The position numbers and the translations under genes are program-made. Shown piece after piece: positions 4,455 to 59,100 of a DNA stretch of 64,000 nucleotides. This DNA comes from Kalaharituber pfeilii (lineage: Eukaryota; Ascomycota; Pezizomycetes; Pezizales; Pezizaceae). Position 1 is the first letter of the stretch. Each line of letters starts with the position of its first letter. The notes under the pieces are model-generated. The model searched no databases, was not told the origin of the DNA, and was given only the letters and a program-made list of their open reading frames with translations. The stretch covers positions 124,001 through 188,000 of the forward strand of contig WHUZ01000077.1 of assembly GCA_015179045.1 (NCBI GenBank). Reading direction: 5' to 3'.

Positions 4455-4962
4455 GAGCGTGGGGCGCGCTGCACCTAATTCCACTACTCTACGCACTGGG
4501 TCCTCTGCTGGGAGGTTGCTGGGCAAAGGAGGAAGAGAAGGAAGTATCAGGTAGTTGAATGGAGAAGATTACTGAGCATGAGCAAGAGTTGTTTGATTGT
4601 ATAGCAAGTGCAGAAACCAATACTAGAAAGACATAACTGTAGAGAGGTGAAGGTAATAGAAAACGAGTATGAAGAGATGAATTTTTTTTTTTATATCATT
4701 GTTCGCGTGCTGAACAGATGAATAAACAGTGAATAGGAAGGATGAAAGATGAAGATGAAGATGAAAGACGAACAAGGTAGAAAGAATGCCTTTCTTATAC
4801 CAGTTAGTGCAGCATCACCATTCCTAAGCACTCCCATGCCCCTGGACTTACCCTCATCATGTAACCTAGCATTGCCTATTTTGCCATACGACCCTCGTGA
4901 CCTGTGGCGTCTGAGCCCAGCGTCATCGCGATAACAGTGTCTTAGGCACGGTGCCTATATGT
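4455..4962 (+). repeat. Dispersed repeat, inverted partner at about 52374-52866
   Basis: The sequence from AGCGTGGGGCGCGCTGC (4457) to about 4962 is the reverse complement of about 52866-52374, at roughly 85 percent similarity by eye. No coding frame or terminal repeats were found, so the repeat class is unknown. The two copies differ by a small retroinsertion at 4683-4711, which is present here and absent from the partner. Confidence 0.75.
4683..4711 (-). mobile_element. 29-bp retroinsertion carrying only half of an A-type 3' hairpin
   Basis: Poly-T followed by ATATCATTGTTCGCGTGC is the complement of the last bases of the A-type LINE tail. Target duplications GAAGAGATGAAT (4671-4682) and GAACAGATGAAT (4712-4723) flank it. 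The paralogous repeat at 52638-52652 has the empty site with one copy of the target. Confidence 0.85.
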
Positions 4963-4969
4963 TCTGGCC

Positions 4970-5085
4970 TACCGACGAACATTGCGGTTCGCGAACCGGC
5001 CAGGCCCATTCGCGAATAGGCCAATTCGTCGGTGGGCTGGCCGATTCGCGAATGGGCCAGCCCACCCGCGAACAATTTTCTTTAC
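4970..5085. repeat. Cluster of GC-rich palindromes built on TTCGCGAA
   Basis: GGTTCGCGAACC (4986-4997) and ATTCGCGAAT (5008-5017 and 5044-5053) are perfect palindromes. GGTGGGCTGGCC (5031-5042) pairs with GGCCAGCCCACC (5055-5066) around the third palindrome, giving a nearly perfect 36-bp palindrome. GGCCCATTCGCGAAT and its complement are repeated at 5003 and 5044. The role is unknown; it may be the end of a decayed DNA element. Confidence 0.8.
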
Positions 5086-5596
5086 AAGTACCACTAGGTA
5101 CCTCTGTATGCTGCTAGTAGCAAGTATAGAGAAACGTTCTGCTACCAAGGATAATTGATGAGCCAGTTATTGTGTGCTTGCACAGCTCCATTGCCACTGA
5201 CAGGTTGCAACTTGCAAGTTGCCACTTGAAAGTTGCTGTCGGTAAGGCTACTAATTTGACTCCCAAGTTGCCACTTCCTACCAACATGCTAGAGGATAAT
5301 AAAGACAACATAATTAAAAATTTGCTGCGCTTCTTCTAACACTGCTGTAGTAAAGAATATAGATTTGTTATCATAGCTAAATTATTACTAAAGAATAACT
5401 ATAAAAAAATTAGTAACTAGACTTCTAGTATTCTTCTTGCTCTAAGTGAAATTTTGGAGTCATCTTCTTAGGTAGAGATATCTGGATTCCTCCGCCGTTG
5501 CTAGTAATATCTTGTGGTAGTAACAAGGATTGCGTTGATGCCACGAATTAGAATTTTGGAGCACTTAATAGAATCCTTAAGCGCCAAGCATCCACT
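5086..5596. other. No gene recognised
   Basis: AT-leaning sequence with a few short imperfect repeats of GCAACTTGCAAGTTGC type (5200-5290). Nothing codes convincingly. Confidence 0.5.
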
Positions 5597-6001
5597 TTAG
5601 GCTCTATCCCACTCGTACTGGCTGGACTTCAGCCATTCCCTCCTAATCTCACTCTCGCTGGTGTTTAATCCTGCTCCGGGTATACTTTGCTCCTCTAGGT
5701 ATATCACAACTGAGTTGGTGACTTTCTCCTCCGTGCGACAACAACTTTTCCAGGACGAGTGCTTGGTCGTAACTCCACGACCAGACGCTCCCCCGAGACG
5801 CAGATTACACCAAAGCGAAGCCCAGGACCGCCTGGCACAGTATATCGACTTTGTTTGAAGGAATTCGAATTCGCAGAACCCTTCCCCCACGATAATCGTT
5901 TTTTCGACTTCGTGAGAGGAAATCTCAAAAAAAAAAACATCACGACCCGGGGGCCCTGCACCATTGGTGTCAGTGCACCCGGACCCTAGAATAACACTCA
6001 C
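5597..6001 (-). pseudogene. LINE ORF1-like fragment
   Basis: The minus-strand frame contains TEEKVTNSVVIYLEEQ followed by WLKSSQYEWDR. The same order of motifs is seen in the ORF1 fragments at 3285-3581 and 62342-62530. The N-terminal half of the frame has no recognisable features. No poly-T, hairpin or target duplication could be found on its left side, so its boundaries as an element are not defined. It is probably a decayed piece of a Tad1-like LINE ORF1, the nucleic-acid-binding protein of the retrotransposon. There is no evidence that it is expressed as a protein. Confidence 0.5.
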
Positions 6002-6386
6002 AAGAGGTGTGGGTACACAGGCGTCGAGCTAAACCCGTTTCGGATACCGATACCGATTGACGAGATCGGGTAATCGACAGAGCCACAAGGGAGACACGTC
6101 CCAAGGGGATTCAGCCAGTTAGATTGTAACAATCTAACCCGGACCCCTCGCCCCAGACCAGCTCCGGTCCTATACTGGCAACCAACATACTACTCGCCAG
6201 TACTCGTACACGTGCAGCTGACCCTGACACCCTTGCAATTCGCTGCACTCCTTCTAGCACTCCGATATGTATATATCCCTGCACCTGTGAGCACGCTTAA
6301 GCGACATGGCCGCCAGCATCCCGGTCATTGCTTAACAACCCGAACCGAAGAACATACCAGAACCTGCTAGAAGAACCTGGATCCCC
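6002..6386. other. No gene recognised
   Basis: No coding frame or element end was supported. Confidence 0.45.
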
Positions 6387-6472
6387 AGAACCCGCCGGAA
6401 AGCCGCAGAACCCACCGGAAAGCCGTAGAACCTGCCGGAAGCTATAGAACCTGCCGGAAAGCCATAGAATCT
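6387..6472. repeat. Minisatellite of about 20 bp, split by a retroinsertion
   Basis: Four units of the type AGAACCYGCCGGAAAGCCRY lie at 6387-6406, 6407-6426, 6427-6445 and 6446-6465. A fifth begins at 6466 and continues after the insertion at 6473-6653 (AGAATCTGCTGGAAA). Confidence 0.85.
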
Positions 6473-6653
6473 TGAAGGAAGGAAAGACGTCCCCCGCATC
6501 GACCCACCCACAACACCACAGAAGTCCGTGGGACTCACATGTAATGAGACAAGTAGTTAGTTTGTATTTTTTCCTTTAATAAAACCCTCGCCATAGCCCA
6601 TAGGGCGGCACGCGAGTAATGATATGAAAAAAAAAAAAAAAAAAAAAAAAAAA
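6473..6653 (+). mobile_element. 181-bp A-tailed retroinsertion
   Basis: The target duplication GCCATAGAATCT occurs at 6461-6472 and 6654-6665. The insert ends in the A-type hairpin (6587-6616, CTCGC...GCGAG) followed by TAATGATATG and about 27 A. The upstream 110 bases have no coding potential and look like a LINE 3'UTR. Confidence 0.9.
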
Positions 6654-6699
6654 GCCATAGAATCTGCTGGAAACAGGTATCGCCGAGCTTATTCTCGGG

Positions 6700-7391: not shown

Positions 7392-7395
7392 CTCC

Positions 7396-7695: not shown

Positions 7696-7704
7696 CCCCC
7701 CTTC
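7696..7704 (-). promoter_or_regulatory. Polypurine tract
   Basis: GAAGGGGGG on the minus strand directly precedes the TGTTACAG start of the 3' LTR. This is the expected site for priming plus-strand DNA. Confidence 0.85.
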
Positions 7705-11494: not shown

Positions 11495-14460
11495 TCATGG
11501 CGCATTCCCATTTTCGCATCCAGCATGGCCATAAACGGACAAGATCTCGTATCCTCCTCCAGCATTGCAAATCAACAGGGTATGTTCCACCACGACTCCT
11601 TGACCCAGGTCTACCATTATCTTGATCCACCCATGAATTTTACTCTTACCACCAATGCCTGTTACACTCATCTCTCGATCCGGAGTAATTATTTTCACCT
11701 GATTATTCTCCCTCAGAATTCTTGCTGAAAATGATTCACTGATAAGAGAGCAGGTAGCGCCACAATCCATCAAGACGTGCTGATTAAAGATGCCTGCAAA
11801 ATAGGCTCCCACTATGAAAGCTGGAGACCACTCTCTCATCTGGCTCTTCTCCTTCACTGCTGCTGCTGCGAATTGTTGTGTGTCTTGTTGAGGAGCTCTC
11901 AGAGCCCTTGGAGGTCGTCGTAATTGCGGCTGTTGTACCCGGATAAAACTCCCCACGTCGGAATCACTGGCATCACCGGCGTCATTCTCGGTCTCGGTCT
12001 CGGTCTCGGATGTAGCTTCTCCTGGTCGGCGTCTTGATGTTCGTGGAGGCGGCGGAATCTCTTCATCATCATGGGGCGGTGGTTGCTGACGTCGACGCAG
12101 AATCCTTTGTGGCTGTGGTCTCGGAGGTGCTGAGGGCGCTGAGGGTGCTTCTTCTAATTCCGATTCTGGAGTGAGAGCTTTGAAGAGGTTGTTGCGGAAT
12201 GTTTTCGACTCATGGCAGAGCTGCTTAAGAGGTAAGGTTAGTGATGTATTTTCCGCCCACTGCTCTGCATTGAGTGCCTGAGCCTTTGTCTTATCTCGTC
12301 TTCGTTCTGCAGGTGTAGAGAATATGGTGTCTGGATTTCGCCTTGCTGGCATGGCACTTGGAAAGTCATTCAATATATAACCTGCCATCATACCCACTTC
12401 GCTCAAGCCAATTTCGTCGTCATCCTCATCTTCTAAGACTCTGGCTGCGGATTCGGTCTTTATGGCCCTCTCTCGCCGGCTCTGCTCAAGGCGATGCTGG
12501 CACGCTGTTGGAGCGGGTACCCCCTTCTGGATTCTGAGGTTCTCTCTTTCCTCTTCATTTCGATATGGCTCATTGCAAATTCCAGCATGATGGCCCTTAG
12601 TCCAACAGTTCCAACAAAGAGTTTGTGCCAGTCTATTCCCTTCTCTGTTGTTTCCAGAATTGCTAGGAGTGTTGGTATCTCCGGAGGTTTCGCTGGGATC
12701 GGCCCGAGTTCGCTGAGACTTTACGGCTCGTTTATCCGAGGTTGATTTTTTGCTCTCCGCCGGCTTACCCTCCTCCGGCTGCTTACCCTTCGGCTTACCG
12801 TCTGCACTGAGCTTTTCATACAGTCGTTTCTGACTTTCAATATACATCCTCTCTCTTGCCAGGGCTTCATCCAGTTGACGTTGCAATTCGACTTTCTCCT
12901 GTTGATATTTGGAGGCCTGCTGGCGATGCCTTTTTGCTGAGAGGTCGGCGTCTTCTGGTTTGTTGTATTTCTTGCGGTTATCGAGAAAGATCGGATCCTC
13001 GTCCAGTTTGTACTTTGCTTCCACTGCACGCAGCTTCCTCTTAGTCTCCTCCCAAGTCTCTGTTCTGAAATCCTTCTCCTCACCAACGTAAAACCTCAGA
13101 AATGCAGGATCCAGGCCAGATATGAGAGTTTCAACATGGTTGTAATCCGTCATCATAGTGGTTAACTGACCCTGCCATGGCCAAGTGCTACAAGCGGGGT
13201 TATGTGATTAAAAAAAAAAAAAAAAAAAAAAATAGTGGTTAACTGAGTTGCAGGAACCTGATCTCTGATGTCTTCATATCGCGCAATGTACTCATCCACA
13301 GGTTTTCCGTCTTGCCTGACCATCTTCAATTGAGCAACTACCGTTGCCGCAGTGATCTCTTCATTTCTATCCCCATATTTTGTTGTCAGTCGCTGAACTA
13401 ACTTCGCATAGGTATCGATTTCGGTGTCTTGCTGTTCAGCCAACCATGACTGCGCTCCAATGAACTTTCTACCATCTAGGCCTTTGGCAGGGGGAGTGCT
13501 TGGGTCTCTCAGTGTGGCTATCAGCAGTTCTCTCTTCATTTCTCCATCCATGAGTTGCCGATTTGTTTGCCCTCCCACTGTGTCATGTAGCCTCACGAAG
13601 GTCTCAAAAGTACGGAGGAATCCACGGAATTTGGTGGTCCCAGTGAATTCTTTGGAGCTGATTGATGTAATATATTGAGCACGCAGTTGTTCTGCAGCTG
13701 CTGCTGCTGCGGCCGCCATTTCGTCTTCTGTATCAAGTGGGTTACCTTGAGAGTCTTCAGAGGATTCCGATTCGGGCTTCGGTTGATTCGATTTCTGAGA
13801 TGTTCCTGATTGAGATTCTGATTGCCCCACTTGCTTTTTCCCTTTTCCAGCCTGCTTTTCCGGAGTAGGTGTAGAATTACCGTCTTCGTCCTCGAAATCG
13901 TCGTAAAGCGATTCTAGGTAGTCGTATGAGCTTGCGATGGATGAGGGTAATGTAGCCGACAAATCTGGAGGTTGATTTTGGGCTGGCTCGGGTGTGATGT
14001 CAATTTTTCCTTTATACCACTGGTAAAAGATTTCCGCTGCTGGGCTTTCTTCAAAACACTTGAGGTAGTGTTTGTAGGCGTCTTCGAATTGAGTCCACTC
14101 TAGGAAGTACGTAGGTGGTTTTTTCCCCAGTGAATTCCTCCCTTCAAATTCCCCAAACAGAGATGGATACCTCTTCGCGTTCTCCTCTTGCAAAATCCCA
14201 ACAAAATACGGCAAAGTCTCTTGGGTAACCGCCCGGGAAACAATTTTATGACACACGGATTTATTCTCAAGAGACAGCCTTCCAAACAAGTATGTAGGGT
14301 CCCTCTTCTTCCCAAACCAGTAAAGTTTGGCCGCTGCTTTCACCAATAGATGATCTACCCTCAGAATTGGTAGAAGATCACTGGTAATAGGGCTCTTACT
14401 TGGTACCTCAAATGGGGGTAGCTGAAGTAGAAGGAGTGCCTCCTCGTTAGAACCACGGTG
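11495..14460 (-). pseudogene. gag: Gypsy gag-protease polyprotein
   Basis: The minus-strand frame runs from about 14460 to 13247. It resumes after a 62-bp retroinsertion (13170-13231) from 13156 to about 11560. The N-terminal half contains LYWFGKKRDP and capsid-like sequence. An acidic, Gln/Ser-rich linker follows. The zinc knuckle CWNCWTKGHHAGIC (about 12618-12575, C-x2-C-x4-H-x4-C) binds nucleic acid in this family. The retropepsin motif LMDCGATCSLI (about 11775-11740) keeps the Asp but has Cys in place of the usual Ser/Thr. A one-base frameshift near 11560 separates protease from the downstream part. No ATG is visible upstream of the annotated frame, so the true start is uncertain. Confidence 0.85.
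13170..13231 (+). mobile_element. 62-bp hairpin-only B-type retroinsertion
   Basis: Target duplication ATAGTGGTTAACTGA (13155-13169, 13232-13246). The insert begins exactly with the outer stem CCCTGC (13170-13175), which pairs with GCGGGG (13194-13199). TTATGTGATT and about 22 A follow. Nothing else is inserted. It lies in the gag frame of the Gypsy element. Confidence 0.95.
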
Positions 14461-18965: not shown

Positions 18966-19028
18966 TTTTTTTTTTTTTTTTTTTTTTTATCATATGACCC
19001 CGCTTGTAGCTGTTCGCCATGACAGGGC
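18966..19028 (-). mobile_element. 63-bp hairpin-only B-type retroinsertion
   Basis: Target duplication ATTAGAGTAGAG (18954-18965, 19029-19040). Poly-T, then ATCATATGACCCCGC. The body ends one base beyond the outer hairpin stem. Confidence 0.93.
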
Positions 19029-23714: not shown

Positions 23715-25511
23715 ATTTCTCTGCCATTGCAACATTTCTGAAGAAAAATCAAATGAATATATCAAAATGAATGTGCTTGGTAAGATAAATGGTTCAAGAT
23801 ACTTTCTAGCCCATGAGTATTCGGTCCCTAGTAGTACTCAAGAAAGGAAGGTTCTCCAGAAATAGTTGAAAAGTGAATTATTATGGAGTAGAAGGAAATA
23901 GATAAGCAAAAAACTAATTGCAGTTCAAGAGAAAGAGATAGCTCATACAAATAGATTGAATTTGGATACTATTGGATTCTTATTTGGAAGAACTATTGTC
24001 GTAAAGTATGGTAAGGGGCGCTAGCAGATATAAAGAACTTCCCTCCGTAACTCTGACTAATGATAGCATAGAAAACTGCTATTATCTAATCCACTATACA
24101 TCTCAAGATGGCCTTCCTCTATATAAGCGATAGTTACAAAATTCAAACACGCATGCATAGCGACACGATATACTTTGCTGGCTAGTGAAGCTGGCATTCT
24201 GGTCGCTTGCCTAGGCACGAAATTAGCCACCTCCATTTTGCTGTACTCACTGATATGTTGGCGAAGCTCATCCCCAGTCCCGAGGCGCCCCAGTACTGGA
24301 GTATAATGCAAGAATTTTCAAGCGACCAAACTGTTCGATACTGCGAGTGCATTGAAAATCTCAGTGAGAGACGGTCAGCTGAGAGTTTGGCCCATGCAAC
24401 GCCAGAGAATAAGGCTACTGAACAGATCGGGGAACAGCAGGCATCATCCTATCTTCCTGCCCTGTCATGGCGAACAGCTGCAAATATCATCCTGCACAAT
24501 GCACTCGCGTCAATAAATAGAGCAATTGTTATCATAGCTTGTCAAATAATCGGCATTCTGCGCACCTTTATTTTCATTTACGATGGTTTCACACGATGAA
24601 TCATGTATTCTACATCACAAATTCAGGCGTTCTCAGGCCAACATGCAATGTTGCTGCAGCGTGGTGTCAATCTGGTTTGGTACACAATCTCAATGCCGGT
24701 TTTTGCAAGTCCATTCGCTGGTACATGCTGCTGGTGAAGTGTTATGCATGAGAGTCTTAGAGTGCATCCCTGTCGAATCTCAACCTTAAACTCTTTTGCT
24801 CTTCATATGATTGCTCTTGATTCATTTTACAACATGCTATTACTGTATTAGATGTCTGTTTGTCGATCAGCAAATGCAGTCAATGGTTTCTGATACGATT
24901 ACACTAGTGACATTGACTCTGTAAAGAATTTCCCCGCCCGCCTATCCCTCTTGGACATTTTTACCTATCCCGGTTTGTTCTGACCCATCGTACACAATTG
25001 TCCACCCTGCCATTGGACATCGTGCAGTATTTTTGAAATTTCACAGCCGATGATAATTGGGCTAGCGCCACTTTAAAATTTTTCCATCTATCGAGGCTGA
25101 ACATCCAGCTGGTGACTCTAGCGTGACTGAGTTTCGTCAATATGGGTGAATGTAATTACTATTCGTGAAAATTCTGCAGGTGGGGAGGATATGAAAAGGA
25201 TGTAAATGGGCGGCCTAGAAATAGATATGGCTCCCTGTAAATCTGAATGGTGTCCAAGTCATAAATTGAAGCCCTGCGATCAAAACGTCTGCGCACTACT
25301 AAGAAGCGTGTACCAAACAATCTTTTGTTGTTTCTGGGACCCTTAGTGCCGAAGGGAGTCAAGGTCACATCACGAGGCGCAATTACTGCTAAATATCCTA
25401 GGTTCTTCCCCCCACGATCAGCAACCATACGGCATAAGGCCCAACAACCTAATCGCCAGCCAGGAGTCAAGCCAGCGAAAGAGTAAGTGTCCGCAAAACT
25501 TATACCTCAAA
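23715..25511. other. Upstream region of the ankyrin-HET gene
   Basis: No convincing gene. A 130-codon frame (24207-24599) overlaps a diverged B-type hairpin (CATGGCGAACAGCTGC at 24468-24483) and has no recognisable domain. A 103-codon frame on the minus strand (25470-25159) is likewise unexplained. The promoter of the ankyrin-HET gene should lie here, but no sure element was identified. Confidence 0.4.
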
Positions 25512-28040: not shown

Positions 28041-28143
28041 ATTTTCTTTTTTTTTTTTTCCAGTGAAGTTTTTTTTCCCAGAATAGTGCAATGAGAATGC
28101 TTTATCGTTATTCGATGTTATATCTTAACGATTTACTACCCTT

Positions 28144-28203
28144 TGTTTTGTTTTGTTTTGTTTTGTTTTGTTTTGTTTGTTTTGTTTGTTTTGTTTGTTT
28201 TTC
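28144..28203. repeat. TTTTG microsatellite in the 3' flank
   Basis: Expanded TTTTG/TTTG tract. The duplicate at 2350-2395 has only a few units. Confidence 0.9.
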
Positions 28204-28925
28204 GTTTCTTTAAATATTTATTTCATTTCTTTCACCTGCAGAAGTGAGAACTTTCCGCTTTTATTCTATGATGGTATAGTGTTAGATTGGTGTGGCAAGA
28301 TATGAGGAGAGCGTGTGGTTGGGAGTGGAAAAATCGATGATTCATGCAAGATTATGTTGGAGTGTAAATGTCCAGTAGTTAGGCAATGATTGACTCTGGG
28401 CAAGAGACCTGGGTCAAACGCATAGTCAGAGGGGTTTGCAGGATAAATATTGATTGTGATTTTGCCTGTTATATTTTTAGTATTTTCACTTACAGTATAA
28501 AAGTATGGGATTTTATGTTGTGGGAAAAAATTATGCGATATATTTGCGACGGGAGTTATATTGCTTAAGTATATAATACAATAACATTGTTAAAACATTG
28601 ATAGTTATGAAGCGTTGGGATCTCTCTTGGCAGAATTTAATTGTTCGGCTACTAGACAATGATATTGTGCTGTAGAGTACGTGCAGTAACTACGTACTTG
28701 AAACGGCGGCTCTCCTCCCAGCCGTAGGCTGGTAGGCTGAAAGCACTTCCCGCAAACACAGGACGAAATAAAGCAAGCCAATAGACATTCTCTGTGTCGC
28801 TGCTGCTGGAGGGATTCAGAATATGTTTTCTTCCACAGTCTCAATACCGTTTGTTGTGTATGCTTCCAGTGGTGGTTTGTCTAATGGCATGTACGCAAGA
28901 AGCTAACGTCGCTTACCGGGATTTC

Positions 28926-29987: not shown

Positions 29988-30041
29988 CTGTATCTTTTTT
30001 TTTTTTTTTTTAATATCATTAATCATGTGCCGCCCTTTTTT
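29988..30041 (-). mobile_element. A-type tail cut by a B-type insertion
   Basis: Poly-T, AATATCATTAATCATGTGCCGCCC, then a second poly-T of the next element begins inside the hairpin. Confidence 0.6.
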
Positions 30042-30284
30042 TTTTTTTTTTTTTTTTTTGGTTTCACGTAACACCCGCTTGCAGCTGGTCGCCATGGCAG
30101 GGTCCCTAGACCGAAGTCCTTATGGCCCGGAGACAGGCACCTATGCAACTACCTACAAAATCGTCCACTGTAAACGCACACAACAATACCACGACTTCGG
30201 TGATGCAGAGGAAACACAAAGCGAAGCCCAATCCTCCAAAAGAACAATCAAGCACAAATACTCAAATATATATATATATTTTTG
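30042..30284 (-). mobile_element. B-type LINE 3'UTR
   Basis: Poly-T and the B hairpin (TGGC-loop-GCTG inner stem). The 3'UTR at 30113-30262 also occurs at 3122-3270. Confidence 0.75.
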
Positions 30285-31894: not shown

Positions 31895-31948
31895 TCCTGC
31901 CTTGGCGAACAGCTGCATGCGGGGTCACGTGAAATTAAAAAAAAAAAA
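31895..31948 (+). mobile_element. 54-bp hairpin-only B-type retroinsertion
   Basis: Target duplication GTAAGGACATAG (31883-31894, 31949-31960). The body starts TCCTGC at the hairpin base and ends TCACGTGAAATT plus 12 A. Confidence 0.95.
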
Positions 31949-31969: not shown

Positions 31970-32051
31970 TTTTTTTTTTTTTTTTTTTAATATCAATACT
32001 CGCAGGCCGCCCTACGGGCTATGGCGAGGGTCTTTATTAAATAAAATGAAG
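31970..32051 (-). mobile_element. 82-bp A-type retroinsertion
   Basis: Target duplication ATAGGATAGCATA (31957-31969, 32052-32064). It uses part of the previous insert's target copy, so it is the younger of the two. Poly-T, hairpin, then 24 bases of 3'UTR. Confidence 0.93.
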
Positions 32052-35154: not shown

Positions 35155-35220
35155 CCTCTCACTATATCCCACAGTGCGGCATGCGAGTAATGATTAAAAA
35201 AAAAAAAAAAAAAAAAAAAT
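35155..35220 (+). mobile_element. 66-bp hairpin-only A-type retroinsertion, diverged
   Basis: Target duplication CCTCTGCATC (35145-35154, 35221-35230). The body begins one base before CTC of the hairpin. 3' half GTGCGGCATGCGAGTAATG and about 25 A. Confidence 0.85.
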
Positions 35221-36367: not shown

Positions 36368-38326
36368 GATTTTTTTTTTTTTTTTTTTTTTTAAATCACA
36401 TAACCCCGCTTGTAGCACGTGGCCATGGCAGGGTCCCTGGGCAAGCCCTCGAAGCCCGGAGACAGGCTTAACAAACCCCCCTCTCCCCCCTCCCCTCTTC
36501 TCCACACTTTCGCACCCCGGCAAGCAAACTTCCCCGACGGCAAACCGCACGGCGCCCTAGAACCTGATCCCGGAGAAGAACCTTTCCAACTCATCCCACT
36601 CCTCCCCATTCTCTGCTGTCCTTTTCCAGTTCTTCCCCATATCCCCCCATTCTCTAAAGCCTTCTGGGCGAAACCTCTGCTGACTGCACTGGAAGGCTAG
36701 GTGCGCCCCCGTCTGGGCCTCCCCGCAGCTGCACTTGTCCGATTCCGCCACTCCCATCCTCTTCAACCACACCCCGCACCTTCCTCTCTCCAGGCGCATG
36801 GCAGTGAAGTTGGACACCGCTGTCCTATTCCACTCCATAACCTTCCCCTTTCCAAAGCCCTCCACTTCTCTCCTCTCCTTCCTCCACGCTTTCACCCTCT
36901 GGCGCACTCCACTTCCAGTGGCCACCTCCTTACCCTGCATCCCCGTCCCCTTCTTTGCCCACTCATCCGCCTTCTCGTTGCCTGCGATTCCGATATGAGC
37001 TTTTACCCACAACAGTTTCGCATCCCCCCCCTTCTTCTTTCTCCTCGCCACTGCATTCACCACCCTTCTCACATCCTCCGTCTTTCCCTTTCCCTCCCTG
37101 CCTGCCTTCTGAATCGCCATGACAGCAGCTTCAGAATCTAAGCAAACCAGGACCGGTACCTCCTCCGGTACACTCTCCAGCGCACTTCTCACCCCCCTCA
37201 CCTCCCCGTCAAAAACCGTCGCCGTTCTCCCTACTACCTCCGCCACCACCGCTGATCTCCCCCACACCCCGCCCCCACCTTGCTGTCCCCGACCTTACTA
37301 CCATCCGAGAAGAGAACCGCTCTCCCTCTTCCGGCTTCCTCAACCGAGGTCTCCCACTCTTCTCTCCCTCCCCCCTTTCTACCTAGCCTCTCTGCGCACT
37401 CCACTTTCACCTTCTCACACTCTCCTCCCCATGAGATCTCCTCGCCCTCCTCCGAGAACCTTGACCACTGCCCCTGCCAGCGGTCCAAAACGCTTTCATA
37501 TCCATCCCCCTCTTCCAGGGCCCACTGCACCCCCAGTCCTTCCAGTTCCTCGTCCCCTCCTCCTTCTCCTCATTCCCTCTCCTGAAATCTCCTGTGCATA
37601 GTTCTGCAAGCTCCGATGGTACCTCCACTTCCCGAACTATCGCCCTTGCCTGTGCTGCGTCCAGGATCACCTCCGCCCCCTCCACTCCGCACACTGCGTT
37701 CACCCCCTCTACCCCTGTGCCTCTCCCCCCTCCAGCTGCCTTCTTTAATGCTTGCAGCTGTACTCTCTCCATTTCTCTTCTCCATTCCTTCTGTCCTCTC
37801 CAACCTATCTCACTACCCCACATGGCCACCGCTCTAATCATGCCCGTATAAATCTGTCTCCAGCTCCTCGGGCTTATTCCCCAATCCCTATTTCCCAACC
37901 CCGCTAGTGCTCCGGTCAACCTTCTTGCTCTGCTGACTCTGTTTTTCCAGTGTGCCGTGAAGGTCAAATTTTCATCAAAGATGACCCCCAGCCACTTCAG
38001 AAACTCCCCCTCCTTCTTCTGCCTCTTTCCTACGCCAAACGTTATCATCTCCCACTTCGACTCCTCCAGCGGGACCTGATCTTCCTCTGCCACCTCTTCC
38101 ATCACCTTCTTCACCTTCTCCCTCAATCGTCCCATATCCCAATAGCCGTGCCAATCCAGGATCGTCGCAGCTAAATCGTCCACATATGACAGCACCTCCA
38201 CCTCCGCTCCAGTGGCTACCCTCCTCACCCTCTCCTCCATTTTCTCGATTGTGGGCGCCATGAAGATTAGAAAAATGACTGGCGAGAGTGGGGACCCTTG
38301 TGGCACTCCCACGTTTTGGCGAAGGT
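36368..38326 (-). mobile_element. 5'-truncated B-type LINE, 1.96 kb
   Basis: At the left, poly-T and TAAATCACATAACCCCGC with the B hairpin (GCCATGGC...). A 3'UTR follows, then ORF2 on the minus strand from RNase H back to the RT box, ending at the right with GVPQGSPLSP. Short GAAGGT repeats flank the LINE together with insert 38327-38459. Confidence 0.88.
36557..38312 (-). pseudogene. LINE ORF2: RT palm, RNase H and C-terminal zinc motif
   Basis: Reading from 38312: GVPQGSPLSPVIFLIFMAP, then SYVDDLAATI, so the RT catalytic YVDD is intact. The thumb follows (RARRLTGALAGLG). RNase H has VLFSDGSKVGDS, GEVRGVRSALE, VCLDSEAAVMAIQ and LLWVKAHIGIAGNEKADE, which supply the D-E-D-D residues. The C-terminal motif is CSCGEAQTGAHLAFQC. 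One frameshift lies between the RT part and 37267. Endonuclease and the N-terminal RT are missing by 5' truncation, which is normal for a LINE copy. RT would copy the LINE RNA at the target, and RNase H would remove RNA from the hybrid. Confidence 0.88.
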
Positions 38327-38459
38327 TTTTTTTTTTTTTATATCATTTAATCGCATGCTGCCCTATGGGCTACGGCGATATTTAGTTACAAATAGAAATA
38401 ACAGGAAAAATGAAGATGACACCGTAGAAATAACTGTCTCAGAAAAAAAAAAAAAAAAA
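38327..38459 (-). mobile_element. A-type insertion bounded by poly-T and poly-A
   Basis: Target duplication TTGGCGAAGGT (38316-38326, 38460-38470). The left end is poly-T plus the hairpin in its ATCGC/GCGAT form, and the right end is 18 A. Both ends look like tails. Confidence 0.85.
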
Positions 38460-39412: not shown

Positions 39413-39813
39413 TACAATAATGTCAGGATTTTGTGTTGCGTTACATTGTGAATGCGAACAATTTATTCCATCACAAAATATGCGAAAATGTGGAGACCAA
39501 GACTGTGGTCATCCGAAAGGAACTCACCACGGATCTACCGCATTATCTACTGCATCATCTACTGGTACTGCCATTATGCCATCTTCTTCTCAAATCTCCA
39601 CAAGAGGTTCGAGAAGATCTTTGGGTGGAGATTTGAGAAGAAGATGGCATAATGGCAGTACCAGTAGATGATGCAGTAGATAATGCGGTAGATCCGTGGT
39701 GAGTTCCTTTCGGATGACCACAGTCTTGGTCTCCACATTTTCGCATATTTTGTGATGGAATAAATTGTTCGCATTCACAATGTAACGCAACACAAAATCC
39801 TGACCTTATTGTA
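39413..39813. repeat. Near-perfect palindrome with 189-bp arms
   Basis: Left arm 39413-39601, right arm 39625-39813, spacer 23 bases, one mismatch seen by eye. Each arm encodes, reading inward, a Cys/His-rich peptide (CVALHCECEQF, then CGDQDCGHPKGTHHG) that ends at the centre. It looks like two head-to-head copies of the 5' end of one ORF. Confidence 0.95.
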
Positions 39814-43941: not shown

Positions 43942-44001
43942 TTCCCCCTCGCCATAGCCTACAAGGCGGCACGCGAGTAATGAAATAAAAAAAAAAAAAA
44001 A
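43942..44001 (+). mobile_element. 60-bp hairpin-only A-type retroinsertion
   Basis: Target duplication TACCCGATGTG (43931-43941, 44002-44012). Five bases, then the hairpin with inner stem GCCT/AGGC, TAATGAAAT and 14 A. Confidence 0.95.
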
Positions 44002-44105: not shown

Positions 44106-45945
44106 ATGTTAAGAGTCGCCTATCAGAACGTGAGGAGGGCGGTGGTGGGGACAGACTTGGCACTGCAGGAGGCAGCGGAACGGAAAATAGACATTTTCTT
44201 CATAGGAGAGGCATGGAGGGCACCGAGAGGAGGGACTACCTTTCACCCAGCTTATGAGACAGTGTACGCACCAGTGAAGATGGGAGGCATAGCAGCATAC
44301 ATGAGAAAGGAGTGGGTGGGGGGAGCAAGAGTGGAGGGAGAGGATAAATTCATTACCGTTCAGGCAGGCGGTAAGAGAGTGACAGGAGTATATTGGAATA
44401 AGGAGGCGAGCATGGAGGCAGAACTGGACAAGATCAGAATGACAGACCTCCTCATCGGGGATTGCAACAGTCATCATAGGGATTGGTCATCGAAACAGGA
44501 TAGCAGAGGACCGGACTTGAGGGAAGGTATGAGAGCACTAAGCCTGAAGCAGCAACCAGACAGGAGGACCGGGACCTGGACAAGAACAGTGAATGGAGAA
44601 GTGTGCACAGCCTTACTAGACTTGGTTTTCACGAGGAGAGAGGAGTGGGAGATAGGCGGGTTGACATAGATAGCAGGCGCAGACCATGCCATAGCTTTTT
44701 TTTTTTTTTTTTTTATTTCATTACTCGCGTGCCGCCTTGTAGGCTATGGCGAGGGCATGCCATAGTTTACGGACACCTGAAGGGAACAGACAGATGTGGA
44801 TTGAGGGTTACAGACTAGGAGAAGTGGGAAGAGTGCGTAGAAAAATGGGGCAAGGAACCATTGCCCAAAGGGGACCCTTATGATATACTGAAGGACCTTA
44901 CGGCTCGATTCACCAGGAAGCTCGGTTAAATGATCAAACGAAGAGGTGGTTCGACAAGGAAGTGAAGGAGGCACATAAGATGAGTAGGTATATCTTGCGC
45001 AAACAGAATGGATTTGACTATGAGAGCAGGATCAAAGCCAGGAGATTACTCAGGGACATAATACGGGACAAGAAGAAATGACACTGGGAGGAATATCTAG
45101 AAGAGGACAGGATAACGTCCCCCTGGGATATATTTAGACTAGCAAGAGACCCCATTCCAGAGTCGGGAACTGATGGGCATCCGAGGCTCAGACCAGGAGA
45201 TAGCCGATGCTCTGGTGGAGCAACATTTCATAACGAAAGAAGAGGAGCTGGAGACCCCAAGGAGACCGGAGAGGATAACGCTGGATAGGGAGGAAGCCAG
45301 GCAAGCTATTGACAAGGCACTGAGCAGAACGAAGTCAAGGTCGGCTCTGGGTTCGGGTGGAGTTCAATATGGACTACTCAAACTATGAGAGGCTTCACGT
45401 TGTACAGGCAAATCAGGGAAAGAATAGTGGACTACATAAACAGAGACTATGACTTTGCAAGAGGCTTCGATGTAGTCATGATACACAAGAAAAACAAACT
45501 CAGAGAGCTACCGGGTAGCTGGAGACCGATCACCTTATTGAATACAGTGGTGAAGTTGGGACAGAAAGTAGTGGCAGACTTGATACAAAGACAGGACTGC
45601 CTGTTCCATAAATCTCAGCTGGGGGGGAGACCACACAGAGGTGCAGAGGACCTCCAGAGGCAAACGCTAAAGGAGGTGGATAGGAGACTAGGACAGGGGA
45701 AATGGGTAGTGCGGGTAGGAGATGATATCAAGTCGGCATTCAACTTCGTAAGAAGACAGAAGGTTGTAGAACGACTAGGATGCAAAGACTCCAATCTAAT
45801 GGCTTTTGTGGATTCATTTCTCCAGCTTGTTATTATTTAATGTCCCCGACGGTGCCTGGCTATCGCACATTTTCCGGGACTATACGCAGTACAAGACTTT
45901 ACATAGGAAACGGGGTTGCCCCCTCTAGGAAAGAAAAACAAAAAA
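44106..45945 (+). pseudogene. LINE ORF2: endonuclease and N-terminal RT
   Basis: The ATG at 44106 starts MLRVAYQNVRRAVVG. The APE-type endonuclease part has IDIFFIGEAWRAPRGG, LLIGDCNSHHRDWSS and LLDLVFTRR. This enzyme nicks the target DNA for LINE priming. A 61-bp hairpin insertion (44695-44755) and several stops or shifts follow. RT pieces: ITLDREEARQAIDKAL (about 45275), GSWRPITLLNTVVKLGQKVV (45508), SQLGGRPHRGAEDL and VRVGDDIKSAFNFVRR (45715). The GLPP wording expected before the catalytic box is at about 45912, after which the sequence switches to the next element. YxDD, RNase H and the 3' end are absent here. Confidence 0.82.
44695..44755 (-). mobile_element. 61-bp hairpin-only A-type retroinsertion
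   Basis: Target duplication CATGCCATAG (44685-44694, 44756-44765). Poly-T, ATTTCATTACTCGC, hairpin with GCCT/AGGC inner stem. It ends two bases beyond the outer stem. Confidence 0.95.
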
Positions 45946-46016: not shown

Positions 46017-49000
46017 CTACCCTTGGCCCCGCTTCCCAAAGTTAGCAGGCCGAATCCGCTCTGCTACCCTCATGCAGAAATTCTGCGTCCTAGACCACTC
46101 CTCCTTCCCGAACAAGACATCAAAACCTGTGGGTACCACCCGCCCATTCCTGCGCGTCCCATAGAGGCCCTCCTCTAGCCTCTCCCTCTCGAGCTTCCGG
46201 CATTTCCGCATGATATGGTCTCTCATTGCCGGCTTGTCTTTCCCACAGAGAGGGCACGCAACCCTCTTGCGAGATATCTCCATGAACGCTCTCACTCCCT
46301 TCTTGGTCCAGTGCCGCAGCCCTAGACCCCACGCCTTTGCCCCCAAGTCCTTCGCAAACTCCGCTCCATCTCGTGCCCTAACTTCTGCGACCGTAAGTTG
46401 GCCGGGGACCCCCTGCATCCTCCACCCCGGTTCTACTACTGCCCTCTTGGCCTCTTTGTCTGCTCTCTCGTTCCCAGCAATCCCCAGATGTGCCGGAACC
46501 CAGATTATATATCCTTCTATGCCTTTATCCGCCAGCTTGCTGCTCATCCTGAGGAGTTCGTGCTCTAATCTTGAGCGTGCTTTGCACTGTCCGTCCAACG
46601 CTGTCCGTACCACATACTGTGAGTCTGTCAGGATGTACATCTTTCCTTTTCCAAGGCCCCTATCAGCTCGCAAGAGCGCCACCCGGCATGCCTCCAGAAC
46701 CGCAGCTAGCTCGGCTACGTCGTTGTCATATGTGTCCAGTAATGCTACCCTGTATGCCTCATATCTGTTTGACTCTTGCTCACCCACACCCCCATATGCT
46801 CCCAGTGTCGGCCTGCGGACCCTAACTGCTGCTGCCCCTACCCCAGCCTCTGAGCGGCTCCCATCCGTATACCACACCTGTGCCCCACTCCAAACCTGCT
46901 CTTCTTCCCACACTGCCACTGCAGCAATCCACCGTTCACATTCCTCCTCCTTTGGTCGCCTCTGCTCTGTCTCTATACTTCCCAAGATTATTCCCTTTCT
47001 CCACGGCTCCCACTCCCGAGCTACGTGTAACTCGATTCTGGTGCCTAGCTCTTCCCCCACCGCCTCCTGTATCAGCTTATCAACTAGACTTCCTTTCCCT
47101 ATCCTACTCCGGTTTATATGACCTGGGACTGTTGCTATCCTAATGGCTGCTCTCCTCCGAAGCTTATCAATGTATGCATCCGTTGGTATGACTCCCAGTT
47201 CCCCTACTGCTACCTTGAACGAGACGCTCGTAGGTAACTGCAGTAGTGCCCTAACCATTCGTGTGTGCTCTTTTCTCAGTGTTTCCCGATCCTTTGTAGA
47301 CTTGTATATCTCCGCTCCATAGGTAAGTGTTGGAAGTAGTATTATGTTAATCAGCTTAACTATAACATCTATTCCTAGACGTCTCTCTCTTATGGTTTGT
47401 GCCATCTGCCACGTCCGTCCCCATGCTTTCTTGACACTTATACTTACTGTATCTTGGTAAGTCCCCTTTATTGTATTCGGTGTCTTAACTCCGAGCCTCT
47501 CATATTCTCGCTTCTGATCACCGTCCTTCTTCTCTCCTCCGTATGCAACGGTATGCCGCTTTTCCTTTGGTAACACCAGCCCCCAGGTATCCTCGAACTC
47601 CTTAAGCGTATCTTCTATGAGCCCAAGAAATTTATCCCACTGTTTGCCAGGTAATAGACCCGTAATACCTATAAACCCATCATCCATATAGGCATCTGTG
47701 TCAACCTCTATATTGTGTTTGTTCTTGATTCTCCAGTCGACTACTCGCTTTTGTTGCTCTGATAGATGTCCCATCCCTGCCTTCCTCTTAGACCCACCGG
47801 AGGACCCCTGCTTAGCCATATAATCCCAGATCCTCTTCTCTAGACTCCGCCTCGCCATTCGCAGTGCCACATCCATTACTAGGCACCAAATAAGAGGCGA
47901 CGCTGGCCCTCCTTGTGGTAGCCCATTGACTATTACTGGCCTTCCCTCCCCTCCCGGCCCATCCCACTGAATCCAGGCAGTCCGTTCCGTTGCCCTATCA
48001 ATCACTGCATCTGCCCATTCCACCAACTCCGGATGCGCCATTAAAGCGTGTAGAACCTGTGCCCCTGACGTTCCCGAGAAGGCCGACTTGACGTCAAAGT
48101 AGATACCGAGCCTAGCGTGAGTATTGGAATGACACTCAGTCTTCTTAACACACGTACTCCTCCTTATAAAGATGCGTTCATAGTCTGCATGCTTGATCAG
48201 CAGATCCACTGCTCCCTGTCCTGTGCGCGCTCCCAGTGTATGCTCAAACCAGCGCACTTTCGCTTTCATACCTTCAACTAGGCCCATCTCATATAGCTTC
48301 TCTAAAATGCCCATAACACCAACTGGTCGCCAGCTGGACAGGTCCCCAGCTGCTGTTCGCCCTGGCTTCATGATCATCTTGATTCTTATATCCCTTCTTC
48401 CATCCCAGCTTTCATGCTCTTCCCACTTCTTCCTAAACACCTCTCCTAATAGCCGTTCCTCTGCCTCTGGCCCAGCTGCTTTCACCACTTTTGCTAGCGC
48501 TCGCTTATTCCAACCGTCGATTCCTGCTGCCGCTTTGCCGCTGAGCTTTCTCCATACCTCCTTCCATATCTCCCTCCAGTTCTGTGACTCCCTATTTGTC
48601 CCCTGGTCAATATTCTCTGCCAGAGCTTGCCTATACGTCACCTCCCCTGCTCCCAGAACCTCCCTATTGCATGACGGGAAATTTGCCTGTACAATTCCCT
48701 CTATGACCTCCTCCGGAGCCAGTCCTGGTGGTCCTGGGACCAAGCCAATACACCTCTTCCGTTTCTTCCCTGAGACCCGCCTCCATGTCTCCCAAACCTT
48801 GCCCATTTCTCCCAATTCACCCCCTTCTAGCAGAACATCTTCTTTGCCCAATAGTTCATCCAGATACGTATCTCTAGCTCTCCTTACTTTCCTTCGAAAG
48901 TCCTTCCGGAGTCTCCGCAGTATTTGTTCCTGCCTCTCCGCTTCATTGCCAGTAGCTCTAACACGTGCCCTATCCACCCGGCGAGTCTGTTGATGTAGCT

Positions 49001-49953
49001 CCCCACGCTGTCGCTCTAGCTCATCATTCCACCACTCACATTGTCCCTTTCTTGCCTCCTGCCTCTTGCCAAATACTCTAGTTCCTAGGACTTCCTCAAT
49101 CTCTTTGATCCCTACGCTCCCCCCTAATGGTTGCACCAATATCTCCCGCATTCCAGCAATTGCACCGCGAAGACCTGTTCCGGCTCCGGCTACGGCCTCG
49201 GCCACGACCCCAGCCTCAGCACCTCTCTGACTTGGAGGTCCCTTATCTGTCCTCTTACGTCTCCTTGTTCCACCCTCCCCTGTTACGGCTGGACCTCCAA
49301 AGGGTGCCGATAACCCCACTACCAGCATCGCATGGTCCGAACCGATCCACCACTTCTGTACCTTGCCCAGAGGTCGAGTACCCGCAATCATATCAATGGC
49401 CTCGTAACTGGCCTTGTGCTGTACCTTCTCCCGCCTCGTAACTGGATCGCCTCTGTTCACCGCCGCTCTAAGTCCTATTGCATCCATCCATCCTGTAATG
49501 CTCTTAATAAGATCTTTATTGTCCCAGGCCCGTGGAGAGAGTCTCCCTGCCCAGTACTTGTGTTGAACATTCATGTCCCCTGCAACCATAACTTGCTGTC
49601 CTCGATCCTTCGCTTCCTGACATAGTCTCACCAGTCTCTCCATCCACCTGTTTTGCGTTTCTCTGCTCTGCCGTGGATGTCGATACAGCCCAATTACTCG
49701 CCATTCCGCAATATCTAAAACAACCACATCGTTCGATTCCTGCCTCCCGCTCAACTATGCCCCGTGTCTCATATATCCACTTCGAGACCCAGATCGCTGT
49801 TTGTCCTTGCCTATAACCCACCGCCTGCTCACTCTCACCTGCTCCGAAATTCCTTGGCACCTCGCTGATTATTCTCAGCTCAGCTTCTCCCCATGGCCCC
49901 ATGGCTTCTGCATACTCCCAAACCTTTCTCACATTAAGTACCTTAACTACCAC
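46017..49953 (-). pseudogene. LINE ORF2, complete domain set, one frameshift
   Basis: A frame of about 1245 codons runs from 49754 to 46017. The first about 65 codons (VVVKVLNVRKVWEYAEAM, then QTAIWVSKWIYETRG) are in another frame, joined near 49745 by a one-base shift. Endonuclease: QQVMVAGDMNVQHKYW and WWIGSDHAMLVVG. RT: SSWRPVGVMGILEKLYE, GIYFDVKSAFSGTSG, NGLPQGGPASPLIW and AYMDDGFIG, so the YMDD box is intact. RNase H: VWYTDGSRSEAG, DVAELAAVLEA, YILTDSQYVVR and IIWVPAHLGIAGNERADKEA. The C-terminal motif is CPLCGKDKPAMRDHIMRKC. Only the single shift separates it from an intact ORF2; two antisense frames over it are shadows. Confidence 0.93.
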
Positions 49954-53029: not shown

Positions 53030-53087
53030 CTCGCCATAGCCCTTAGGGCGGCATGCGAGTAATGAAATAAAAAAAAAAAAAAAAAAA
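53030..53087 (+). mobile_element. 58-bp hairpin-only A-type retroinsertion, cleanest example
   Basis: Target duplication GAGCTAAAGATGAT (53016-53029, 53088-53101). The insert begins with the first base of the outer stem CTCGC (53030-53034), which pairs with GCGAG (53055-53059). The inner stem is GCCC (53039-53042)/GGGC (53046-53049). TAATGAAAT and about 19 A follow. Confidence 0.97.
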
Positions 53088-53656: not shown

Positions 53657-53691
<35 letters not shown>

Positions 53692-53998
53692 ATAACCCCG
53701 CTTGTAGCACGTGGCCATGGCAGGGTCCCTGGGCAAGCCCTCATAGCCCGGAGACAGGCTAAAATAAATTTCTACGTACATGGCCCCATCGCGCCGTCGC
53801 CCCCGCTCTCCTAATTTCTAGAACTTGACCCCGGCGAAGAAATTCTCTAAAATGTCATATTCCTCCCCATTCTCCGCCTTTCTCTTCCAATTCTTTCCCA
53901 TGTCGCTCCACCTCTCAAAACCTTCTGGACGGTTCTTCTGGCTTCTGCATCGGAAAGCGAGATGCTCCCCCGTAATTAGTTCGGCACGCGAGTAATGA

Positions 53999-55995: not shown

Positions 55996-56008
55996 CTGGT
56001 AACAGGAA

Positions 56009-56929: not shown

Positions 56930-57023
56930 AAGAAGAGATGATTGTTATTACTCCGTAGACAGAGTAGCCAAAGTACGGCATCTATATACATAGAGCTCTT
57001 GGACCTTACTAGACTCCGTCATG

Positions 57024-57589
57024 ATCGGAGCCCTACTACAGTATCCGACGGAGAAGGTCACGGAAGCCGGACTACACATGGAGGTCAGGGCGCGGCGAAT
57101 CGAACAAAGAAACAGACTAGGACGAAGCTACAGACCACTATAGTGCCTAGGAAGCCTGACGGGCACCCTGGGGGACCTGCTGGGCGGAAAAGGCGTCAAC
57201 TCCTGGAAATATAAGATAAAAAAGGCGGAGAGCCTGGAATGCCGAAGGTGCGGGGAAGAAGAAGAGACGGCAACACACATCTGGGAGAGCTGTAGGGTAT
57301 GGAAACAAAAATGGCCAGGGGGTCAGGCAGAGGCGAAAGCACCCAAGGGGAGAGAAGGCGAGGAGGGTGACCCATTGGTGGACATGCTGACATGGGCGAG
57401 GACATGACGAATCAATTCTTTTAAGGGGGGGACTGGACGAAGTTATTTCACTAATTTCCACTGCTTACTTATTTCTGACGGTTGAGACTCCTTTATTTCC
57501 TATATTTATTCATTACGTACCTAATCTCGCCATAGCTCACGGGGCGGCATGCGAGTAGTAATGATATTTAAAAAAAAAAAAAAAAAATT
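57024..57589 (+). mobile_element. 5'-truncated A-type LINE, 566 bp
   Basis: Target duplication GACTCCGTCATG / GACTCCCTCATG (57012-57023, 57590-57601). The plus strand encodes the ORF2 end: RIEQRNRLGRSYRPL, a stop, then CRRCGEEEETATHIWESC (C-x2-C-x8-H-x4-C). The hairpin near 57528-57557 has inner stem GCTC/GGGC (G-U pair). TAATGATATTT and poly-A follow. Confidence 0.9.
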
Positions 57590-57646
57590 GACTCCCTCAT
57601 GGCCCCTACTGATGATCGACCTGCCATGTTTAATTGACCGGACATT

Positions 57647-57705
57647 TTTTTTTTTTTTTACGGTCACGTAACCCCGCATACAGGCTACTGGCCTATGGCA
57701 GGGAA
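57647..57705 (-). mobile_element. 59-bp hairpin-only B-type retroinsertion
   Basis: Target duplication ACCGGACATT (57637-57646, 57706-57715). The inner stem is AGGC/GCCT instead of TGGC/GCTG, so both strands changed. It ends two bases past the outer stem. Confidence 0.95.
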
Positions 57706-57840
57706 ACCGGACATTACTGCAGATCTCTAACAGCTGTGATGCACGGACGTATCGCAGGAAATAAGTGGTGATGGGCGCTAGGGCTGGGTAGGGGTTGATT
57801 GAAAAATAGATATATATAAATTTAGATCAACGTTTACTAT

Positions 57841-58209
57841 TTACTGATCATGGGTAGTAGCCCACGACCACACTAGTATCTACAAATGGCGGCAATACAT
57901 GAGGCCTTACTGCACCCTGATCCAAGGGGCGCTAGGGCATTCGATGGATGTTATGGTAATTAGAATCTCTAGTTAAGGTGTTCTATGGTCGCAAGTACCG
58001 ATAGATATAGCACTCTCGACATCCAATATGTCACTTCTGAGCTCGTCATAATCCAGCTGGAATTAACAAAACAAACACGTCGCCATGAAGTCGTCAGATT
58101 GCGGTCCTGTTGAATACAACGGATATCTCATCGTAGCCACTTGGGTAGTTTACGAGTACTGAAATTTAAAAATAAAACCAAGAACAAGGACAAAAACTAG
58201 CCATTTATT
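57841..58209. other. No gene recognised
   Basis: Nothing supported. Confidence 0.4.
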
Positions 58210-58728
58210 GCTTGCTTAGCTTTCTTTGCAATACCCTTTTAATCATGAAGGCGGGAATGCGCATGGCGGCCAAGGCCCGGCGAGCAGCGCACGGCAGAGC
58301 GATCGACCAGGACTGATCTACAGAGAGTGGGGATAGGGTACGCACGCTGGCTGGCGTGTTGGGGGGGAAAGGTCTGAAGGCCTGAAAGCATAAAATGGGC
58401 AAGGCGTACAGTCCAGAATGCAGATAGTGCGGGAGAAGGATACGGCAACTCAAATTTGGAACAGGTGCGATGCATGGAGGAGTGAATGGCCAGGACGGCT
58501 AAAACCAATATATAGGCCACCGGTCGCAAGGGAGAGGGAAGGGGAGGGGGAAGGGGAGGAGAAGGGGACCCCGTGGTGGAACTATTGAGGTGGATAGAGA
58601 AATACTGTAATTTCATTAGGTCTGGCTTTTACCGTTGAATTCGTTTTTTTTGTTATTTTATTTCCTTTATCTCCTATGTAATTAATCTCGTCATAGCCCA
58701 TAGGGCGGCATGCGAGTAATTTTCTTTC
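58210..58728 (+). mobile_element. 5'-truncated A-type LINE
   Basis: ORF2 end in decayed form (SPECR, CG, then TAT-IW-type wording), a G/A-rich tract at 58528-58566, then the hairpin at 58686-58715 (CTCGT...GCGAG). The usual poly-A is replaced by a T-rich tract, probably because another element joins here. Confidence 0.7.
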
Positions 58729-59100
58729 TTTTTTTTTTTTTTTTTTTTTCGTTAATGCTGTGTTGTTTTGTAGAGACATGGTGAGAGTTATTATCGCTAC
58801 CTACAAATGAGAGTCTCAAGCAAATATAGGATATAAATGAAAATGATGACCTAATAAACTCGATTGTAGCTCTCCACCTCCTGCCGCCCCACATAGTAAG
58901 CCTACTAGTGGGTCTTCTCTTTCTTCGGTGCAAATTATATCTCTCGCTCTGCTGGGTATGCGTTTTTTTTTTTTTTTTTTTTTTTTTTTCACGTGACCCC
59001 GCATGCGGCTGTTCGCCATGGCAGGGCTCCTGGGTATGCGTACCGGGCACCTCTCCAACTAACTTCGCACAATTACCAGACTCTGAAGCCCGTGTATAGT
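58729..59100 (-). mobile_element. A-type LINE 3' end, diverged
   Basis: Poly-T (58729-58749), a degenerate hairpin, then a 3'UTR with GTGGGTCTTCTC resembling 40085-40100. It is split by the B-type insert 58964-59029. Confidence 0.55.
58964..59029 (-). mobile_element. 66-bp hairpin-only B-type retroinsertion
   Basis: Target duplication CTGGGTATGCGT (58952-58963, 59030-59041). Inner stem TGGC/GCCG. It ends three bases past the outer stem. Confidence 0.95.

Follow-up and report, generated by a model that had tools for sequence, protein, structure and literature searches.

The 64-kb stretch of contig 336 of the fungus Kalaharituber pfeilii considered here (the window; the genome comprises 78.0 Mb in 360 contigs) holds ankyrin- and HET-domain genes, a long interspersed nuclear element (LINE) with endonuclease, reverse transcriptase (RT) and RNase H, and open reading frames (ORFs) of long terminal repeat (LTR) elements, a content that suggests a filamentous ascomycete in view of where HET domains occur. 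Among these lie nine inserts made of a single hairpin, a linker and a poly-A run between target duplications, to which we refer as hairpin-only retroposons. An earlier reading of the letters of the window (the original prediction) had listed them, and all nine are present where it placed them. They measure 39–46 nt without the A-run; their duplications, 10–15 bp long as had been claimed, all score at least 9; and their 5′-ends, which had been said to fall near the hairpin base, lie 0–6 nt outside a 30-nt hairpin frame (Table 1). All of the evidence that follows comes from the sequence of this one genome, at sampled loci.

Table 1. Hairpin-only inserts, longer tail copies and LINE ORFs in the window
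Position	Strand	Feature	Target duplication	Remarks
13170..13231	+	F1a hairpin-only insert, poly-A	15 bp	inside an LTR-element ORF with a gag match
18966..19028	-	F1b hairpin-only insert	12 bp	templated end G at +1
31895..31948	+	F1b hairpin-only insert	14 bp	
35155..35220	+	F2 hairpin-only insert, mutated hairpin	10 bp (score 9)	single T between A-run and duplication
43942..44001	+	F2 hairpin-only insert	11 bp	6 extra nt
44695..44755	-	F2 hairpin-only insert	13 bp, 1 mismatch	
53030..53087	+	F2 hairpin-only insert	14 bp	end exactly at the stem base
57647..57705	-	F1 variant hairpin-only insert	10 bp	32-nt hairpin, real overhang about 2 nt
58964..59029	-	F1b hairpin-only insert	12 bp	
36370..38342	-	parent-type LINE: RT and RNase H ORF pieces		3′-end is F1a hairpin plus poly-A
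53658..53971	-	5′-truncated F1a LINE 3′-end	16 bp	246 nt past the hairpin frame
61901..62041	-	F1b LINE 3′-end	13 bp	72 nt past the hairpin frame
4682..4710	-	F2 copy truncated within the hairpin (18 nt)	13 bp, 1 mismatch	
31970..32051	-	F2 copy	13 bp	23 nt past the hairpin frame
46017..49754	-	1245-aa LINE ORF with endonuclease, RT and RNase H		

The hairpins belong to two families, both of which reach the poly-A through a variable linker. F1 has the outer stem CCCTGC/GCGGGG followed by T[CT]A[CT]GTGA, and is divided into F1a (GGCCAAG or GGCCACG) and F1b (GGCGAAC); F2 has CTCGC/GCGAG or ATCGC/GCGAT followed by TAATGATAT or close variants. An F1a hairpin terminates the parent-type LINE of the window right after its RNase H piece, and RNase H homology (37–44% identity) was found in 5 of 20 F1b loci in LINE context, each with ∼500 upstream bases. 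By this context the F1 hairpins are LINE 3′-tails; F2 copies that retain upstream sequence resemble LINE C-terminal coding sequence by eye, which suggests, and does not establish, the same origin for F2. As a proxy for LINE context at F1b loci we used an upstream GGGG, and at the 20 loci so chosen LINE-like sequence lies upstream in 20/20; at one listed place (L052) the GGGG occurs by chance beside a hairpin-only insert. Among the first 100 matches listed, each of the seven most frequent F1b variants is also found with this GGGG; since they occur in LINE context as well, the hairpin-only unit appears to be a trimmed tail of a LINE. The LINE ORF at 46017–49754 was not taken as the parent, since no F1 or F2 hairpin occurs in the 417 bases after it; it had no relatives at E ≤ 0.001 among 7993 scored candidates of the protein collection and may represent another type of LINE.

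The F2 hairpin appears to be under structural constraint, for which the evidence is indicative, the sequences being related: in 44 distinct hairpins, 97.5% of cells are paired, compared with 16–52% when the partner is slid, and 17 cells are compensatory against a shuffled mean of 4.2. The F1b unit folded alone has a z of −2.3. The linker of F1b between GTG and the A-run is itself very variable (none, AT, AAAT, AAAGGG, ACACAC or AAGGGG, e.g., at L013, L050 and L123), which suggests that the RNA 3′-end is loosely chosen or that bases are added at the start of copying.

Hairpin-only inserts are real and numerous. In samples taken independently of the 5′-end (the window, 200 kb chosen by position and 60 loci of contig 1 drawn from listed 3′-arm places), 66 of 135 sites carry a duplication scoring at least 10, against 1 of 135 when flanks were swapped. 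A deduplicated set of 228 sites, which takes in samples selected on hairpin integrity or on LINE context, contains 133 such duplications, 89 of them starting at −3 to +6 relative to the hairpin frame; none of 2275 swapped-flank trials fell in that interval, and the overall shuffled rate was 0.97%. Scored duplications span 10–19 bp. A scan blind to the hairpin, which looked only for poly-A runs of at least 10 A with duplications around inserts of at most 120 nt, covered 264 kb (the window plus the same 200 kb, in 20 stretches of contigs 2, 46 and 13). It found inserts at 27 of 118 runs, where 0.4 would be expected; 26 of the 27 were whole or partial F1 or F2 tails, one was of low complexity, and 19 measured 38–46 nt. 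For the insert at 13170–13231 an empty site exists, in that the flanks abut in two further copies of the host LTR element; the flank matches overlap by 12 and 15 bp, corresponding to a single target copy, and realignment of the second gave the same result.

By their duplications and A-tails, and in F1 also by a sequence equal to the 3′-end of a LINE with RT, these inserts are LINE-derived retroposons of the target-primed reverse transcription type. A miniature inverted-repeat transposable element was rejected, as the duplications vary in length and the A-tail stands at one end. Short interspersed nuclear elements (SINEs) carry a promoter-bearing head before the tail; nothing stands ahead of the hairpin in these inserts, which do have the LINE-like 3′-tail of a SINE. 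A tRNA-headed SINE was rejected by ARAGORN, which found no tRNA in the window, and a known ribozyme, such as one resembling that of hepatitis delta virus, by a scan of the window against Rfam at gathering scores, which returned no match to ribozymes, RNA polymerase III (pol III)-type heads or any other entry.

The position of the 5′-end is what sets these inserts apart. With duplications scoring at least 10 sought within 300 nt, the samples not chosen by 5′-end gave 63 F1 sites (2 of them cut by locus ends), of which 36 are duplicated and 27 of these start at −2 to +4; for F2, 30 of 72 sites are duplicated and 10 of the 30 start at −1 to +6. A site with no duplication in this range may represent a longer copy or one that has decayed; for F2, the pattern requires the 3′-arm, so that ends inside this arm are under-counted. 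Pooling the window with loci L009–L148, deduplicated and searched over 560 nt, raised the numbers to 74 duplicated among 116 F1 sites, with 53 ends at −2 to +5, 23 of them exactly at +1, and 10 further ends at the base of the next stem; among 73 F2 sites 33 are duplicated, with 11 ends at −1 to +6. Because the pooled set takes in loci picked for their LINE context or because the F1b hairpin is intact, its proportions are not those of the genome.

Selected samples gave the same peak. Forty loci with an intact F1b hairpin, taken by hand from the first 100 matches listed, included 33 with an F1 site by rule and yielded 28 duplicated F1 sites (one being an F1a neighbor), 27 with ends at −4 to +5 and the other at 38. 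All 20 F1a hairpins picked for having no LINE context are duplicated, and in 19 the best duplication starts at −3 to +2; the remaining locus, L155, has its longer match at a distance, at 61, in addition to a shorter one that is adjacent, and may be hairpin-only too. Of 20 further F2 loci, 18 could be scored, two having no site by rule; nine have duplications of at least 10, and six of the nine start 1–4 nt from the frame, one of them (L179) with an unusual hairpin. A peak at the hairpin base had been anticipated by the original prediction, and that peak, together with the target duplications, the two features whose absence it had named as fatal to its case, was found in samples from several contigs.

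Another account is ordinary random 5′-truncation, seen here through nine chosen examples. By rule, the window holds 28 sites of hairpin plus poly-A, of which 17 have a duplication scoring at least 9 within 300 nt; nine of these end at the stem base, and it counts in favor of selection that the other eight end elsewhere (−21, 23, 72, 80, 114, 134, 175 and 246). The peak nevertheless recurs where sampling ignored the 5′-end, and no shuffled control fell at the stem base, so that chance or reader selection can be practically dismissed; given this clustering, random 5′-truncation accounts neither for F1 nor for the peak in F2 and is rejected for both. In F2, the spread of ends inside and beyond the hairpin indicates that ordinary truncation is also at work.

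The junctions at the F1 stem base add a resolution of one base. We scored 48 of 49 junctions at 0 to +5, leaving out one longer-hairpin variant, and at the first position beyond the 30-nt frame found G in 41/41 F1b and A in 7/7 F1a copies. Either base is a possible partner of the U that comes after GCGGGG, and the templated part of F1 inserts thus ends with the outermost base pair of the stem. Nineteen junctions carry extra bases, and the adjacent one is T in 11, C in 5, G in 2 and A in 1, where the LINE has G (a match in 2/19); a further junction of this kind, with A, belongs to the F1a set. Measured against run-off at +1, 54 F1 junctions divide into 23 that are exact, 20 with extra bases and 11 with an overlap. 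There is no clear excess of microhomology, given that chance alone would produce an overlap of one base or more in about one-quarter of junctions that lack extra bases. A-tail and duplication lengths are alike in short, middle and long copies, and the Y|A target junction is similar between the classes; an apparent Y|AA motif is partly an artifact of extending duplications beside the A-run, and we rely on no more than the resemblance of the classes to one another over the two bases at the junction.

A second peak lies one stem upstream. Among the 20 F1b loci with GGGG upstream, 10 have duplications (score of at least 10, 560 nt), 8 of which start 36–41 nt past the frame, where the centroid fold predicts the 5′-base of a 7-bp stem (AAGCCTG/CGGGCTT). 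Two more copies ending there came from other samples (L058 and L099). These ends are fuzzier, by 1–3 nt, fall in an A-rich stretch and occur with several hairpin variants. Near the 3′-edge of a stem, by comparison, only one of the 27 blind-scan inserts ends (12 nt, F2).

We suggest that hairpin-only retroposons probably arise from LINE 3′-ends by way of an RNA trimmed at stems and then copied to its end. LINE RNA would be trimmed from its 5′-side by a 5′-to-3′ exonuclease, or cut by an endonuclease; trimming would halt at a stable stem, the last of which might be shielded by LINE protein bound to the hairpin. Target-primed reverse transcription would then copy the protected 3′-fragment as far as its true 5′-end, and on running off there the enzyme would often add one or a few bases. 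The step through a short RNA template is read from the anatomy of the junctions. Trimming from the 5′-side is favored because the junctions look like run-off and the ends mark the 5′-edge first of one stem and then of the next: an agent moving in from the 5′-side would be halted at that edge, whereas RT, which enters from the 3′-side, should be halted at the opposite one. A cut by an endonuclease at the stem base would agree with the data just as well; the ladder of two stems tips the balance slightly toward a general trimming process. Two observations on other systems bear on these steps: stringent LINE proteins bind the 3′-stem-loop (PMC4176376), and the R2 polymerase is reported to add nontemplated bases on running off its template (PMC2718515).

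Several observations weigh against trimming at stems. 5′-to-3′ exonucleases often halt a few nucleotides before a stem, and the F1 ends are flush. F2 is much less sharp than F1, with 6 of its 33 duplicated pooled copies ending inside the hairpin and 16 beyond the base over 11–511 nt; some of its extra bases (AC) match the LINE; and two of the five structure measures for its hairpin, the pairs changed on both sides (2) and the further pair types (6), do not exceed shuffles. A weak stem-like stretch ∼17 nt upstream shows no ends, the three duplicated F1a-type copies in LINE context end at 154, 197 and 246 and not at the upstream stem, and the LINE-context folds are not clearly beyond shuffled stability (z of −1.4, −0.3 and −1.7). 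Nontemplated bases, moreover, are reported at the junctions of truncated LINEs as well (PMC2718515).

The alternative that survives best is that RT copies the hairpin of a full-length LINE RNA and then stops, for example because the protein remains tethered to the hairpin or is blocked just upstream. This would explain the short inserts without a new RNA species, and it accords with the binding of the 3′-stem-loop by stringent LINE proteins (PMC4176376) and with the view, in a study of the fungal element MGL, that reverse transcription pauses or jumps near hairpins (PMC2104539). We nonetheless consider it unlikely: the ends mark the 5′-edges of two stems, where a polymerase arriving from the 3′-side should have stopped at the 3′-edges; a hairpin once copied would leave no stem to mark its 5′-edge; and the F2 peak occurs in an unrelated, AT-rich upstream context.

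Alternatively, the unit could be an independent small-RNA element, in effect an ultra-short SINE, either transcribed from a dedicated gene or excised from host transcripts that contain earlier copies. A fixed 5′-end, a high copy number and variants with linkers of their own, such as two copies sharing GCGCGC plus GACAC, are what such an element would show. A unit of 40 nt is too short for the box spacing of an internal pol III promoter, the window contains no tRNA, the sequence upstream is not common to the copies examined, and the stem-base peak appears in F1a, F1b and F2 alike, which together make this origin distinctly unlikely. As the sole source, an independent hairpin lineage is rejected, since the commonest F1b variants among the matches listed occur in LINE context too. 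The original prediction stands in setting aside random truncation; of the two mechanisms that it offered, a short hairpin RNA as template is favored over an RT stop, and an independent hairpin-RNA element, in the form in which it was worded, is not supported.

Trimming of the complementary DNA (cDNA), in which a 3′-exonuclease or flap nuclease removes what extends past the cDNA hairpin before second-strand synthesis, would likewise place ends at the 5′-edges of stems. In cDNA, however, the outermost pair of F1b, G-U in the RNA, corresponds to a C-A mismatch, and a flush cut would drop the +1 base, yet G is retained there in every F1b junction scored; we therefore regard it as very improbable, although a cut that leaves one base would be compatible with this G.

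The abundance of the tails can be gauged from counts over the genome. On the forward strand, the 3′-arm with linker and poly-A occurs 1729 times for F1 and 2421 times for F2; the reverse-strand counts (11429 and 16037) were not used, as they repeat single places at different gap lengths. The F1b-pattern hairpin with TCACG was found 801 times, and a slightly wider pattern was preceded by the LINE-like GGGG 178 times; the F1a-pattern hairpin with A at +1 was found 539 times, in 300 cases preceded by the LINE-like CAGGG. Thus, at least 623 of 801 F1b and at least 239 of 539 F1a hairpins lack the adjoining bases of the LINE. By extrapolation from the stem-base fractions of the unselected samples (27/63 F1 and 10/72 F2 sites), there would be ∼2000 hairpin-only inserts genome-wide if the sampled fractions hold and the strands are equal. 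On contig 1, 34 of 38 forward-strand F1 and F2 places among the matches listed fall in the first 560 kb (at 45–560 kb, versus 0.56–2.99 Mb for the others), which suggests a repeat-rich compartment.

Some copies of the tails are arranged in other ways. At 29995–30110 (minus strand), an F1 LINE 3′-end with a 24-A run is followed directly by the 3′-half of an F2 hairpin with a 17-A run, possibly a template-switch chimera of F1 and F2 or a nested insert. At L037, L039 and L130 the hairpin and A-run are followed, back to back, by a second whole or partial hairpin and A-run, and these dimer-like inserts perhaps reflect template jumps between two tails. Two F1 copies, both on the minus strand, have a T-run directly before the A-run in place of the usual A-tail: 12 T + 17 A at 61901–61929 and 13 T + 24 A near position 6961 of L022. 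Elsewhere in the window, a gene region is duplicated at 4–3227 and 25584–28925 (80–99% identity piecewise), with an Ank/HET ORF at 25347–28040 and a 625-aa ORF at 376–2253, and a 189-bp inverted repeat at 39413–39813 has arms that are 99% complementary around a 23-nt spacer.

Several known systems come close to hairpin-only retroposons. Stringent LINE/SINE pairs with a shared 3′-hairpin, known from UnaL2 and ZfL2, occur in fungi among Tad1-clade LINEs and as Mg-SINE with MGL (PMC3747384, PMC5135761, PMC4176376). The inserts resemble such pairs in having a 3′-stem-loop common to the LINE and the short element, and target duplications, and differ in that nothing precedes the hairpin. With 5′-truncated LINE copies they share the LINE 3′-end, the A-tail, target duplications and the same host families; the F1 5′-ends, however, are not spread but coincide with the outermost pairing of the hairpin and peak again one stem upstream. 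In Magnaporthe, MGL shows hairpin-associated template switching, so that there, too, a fungal LINE ends at preferred positions associated with hairpins (PMC2104539); the resulting MINE elements are template-switch chimeras with MGL parts of at least 230 nt, whereas the inserts described here are simple and 40 nt long. For R2, a stable structure at the 5′-end of the template RNA has been proposed to shield it from decay, and run-off adds bases as well (PMC11331408, PMC2718515); that structure lies at the template's own 5′-end, whereas here the 3′-recognition hairpin would be the barrier and would yield a minimum. No description of hairpin-only retroposons with a stem-base ladder was found in the open-licence literature searched, as far as its text was available.

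These retroposons bear on why LINEs are 5′-truncated, for which failure of RT, decay of the template RNA and early second-strand synthesis have been proposed (PMC2718515). The ends described here, which fall on the 5′-bases of two stems, in F1 with single-base precision, constitute a natural readout favoring template decay for this class, and the question of LINE truncation becomes testable with mutants. Whether the LINE 3′-hairpin acts more generally as a barrier to decay, such that trimmed RNA is a major substrate of retrotransposition, 5′-truncation is largely set by decay before copying and the minimal unit arises in one LINE subfamily after another, is a proposition on which we are evenly divided. 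If it is true that the tails are trimmed at stems, ∼40 nt would be the minimal mobile unit that a LINE can produce, and repeat annotation may be missing an abundant class of inserts of this size.

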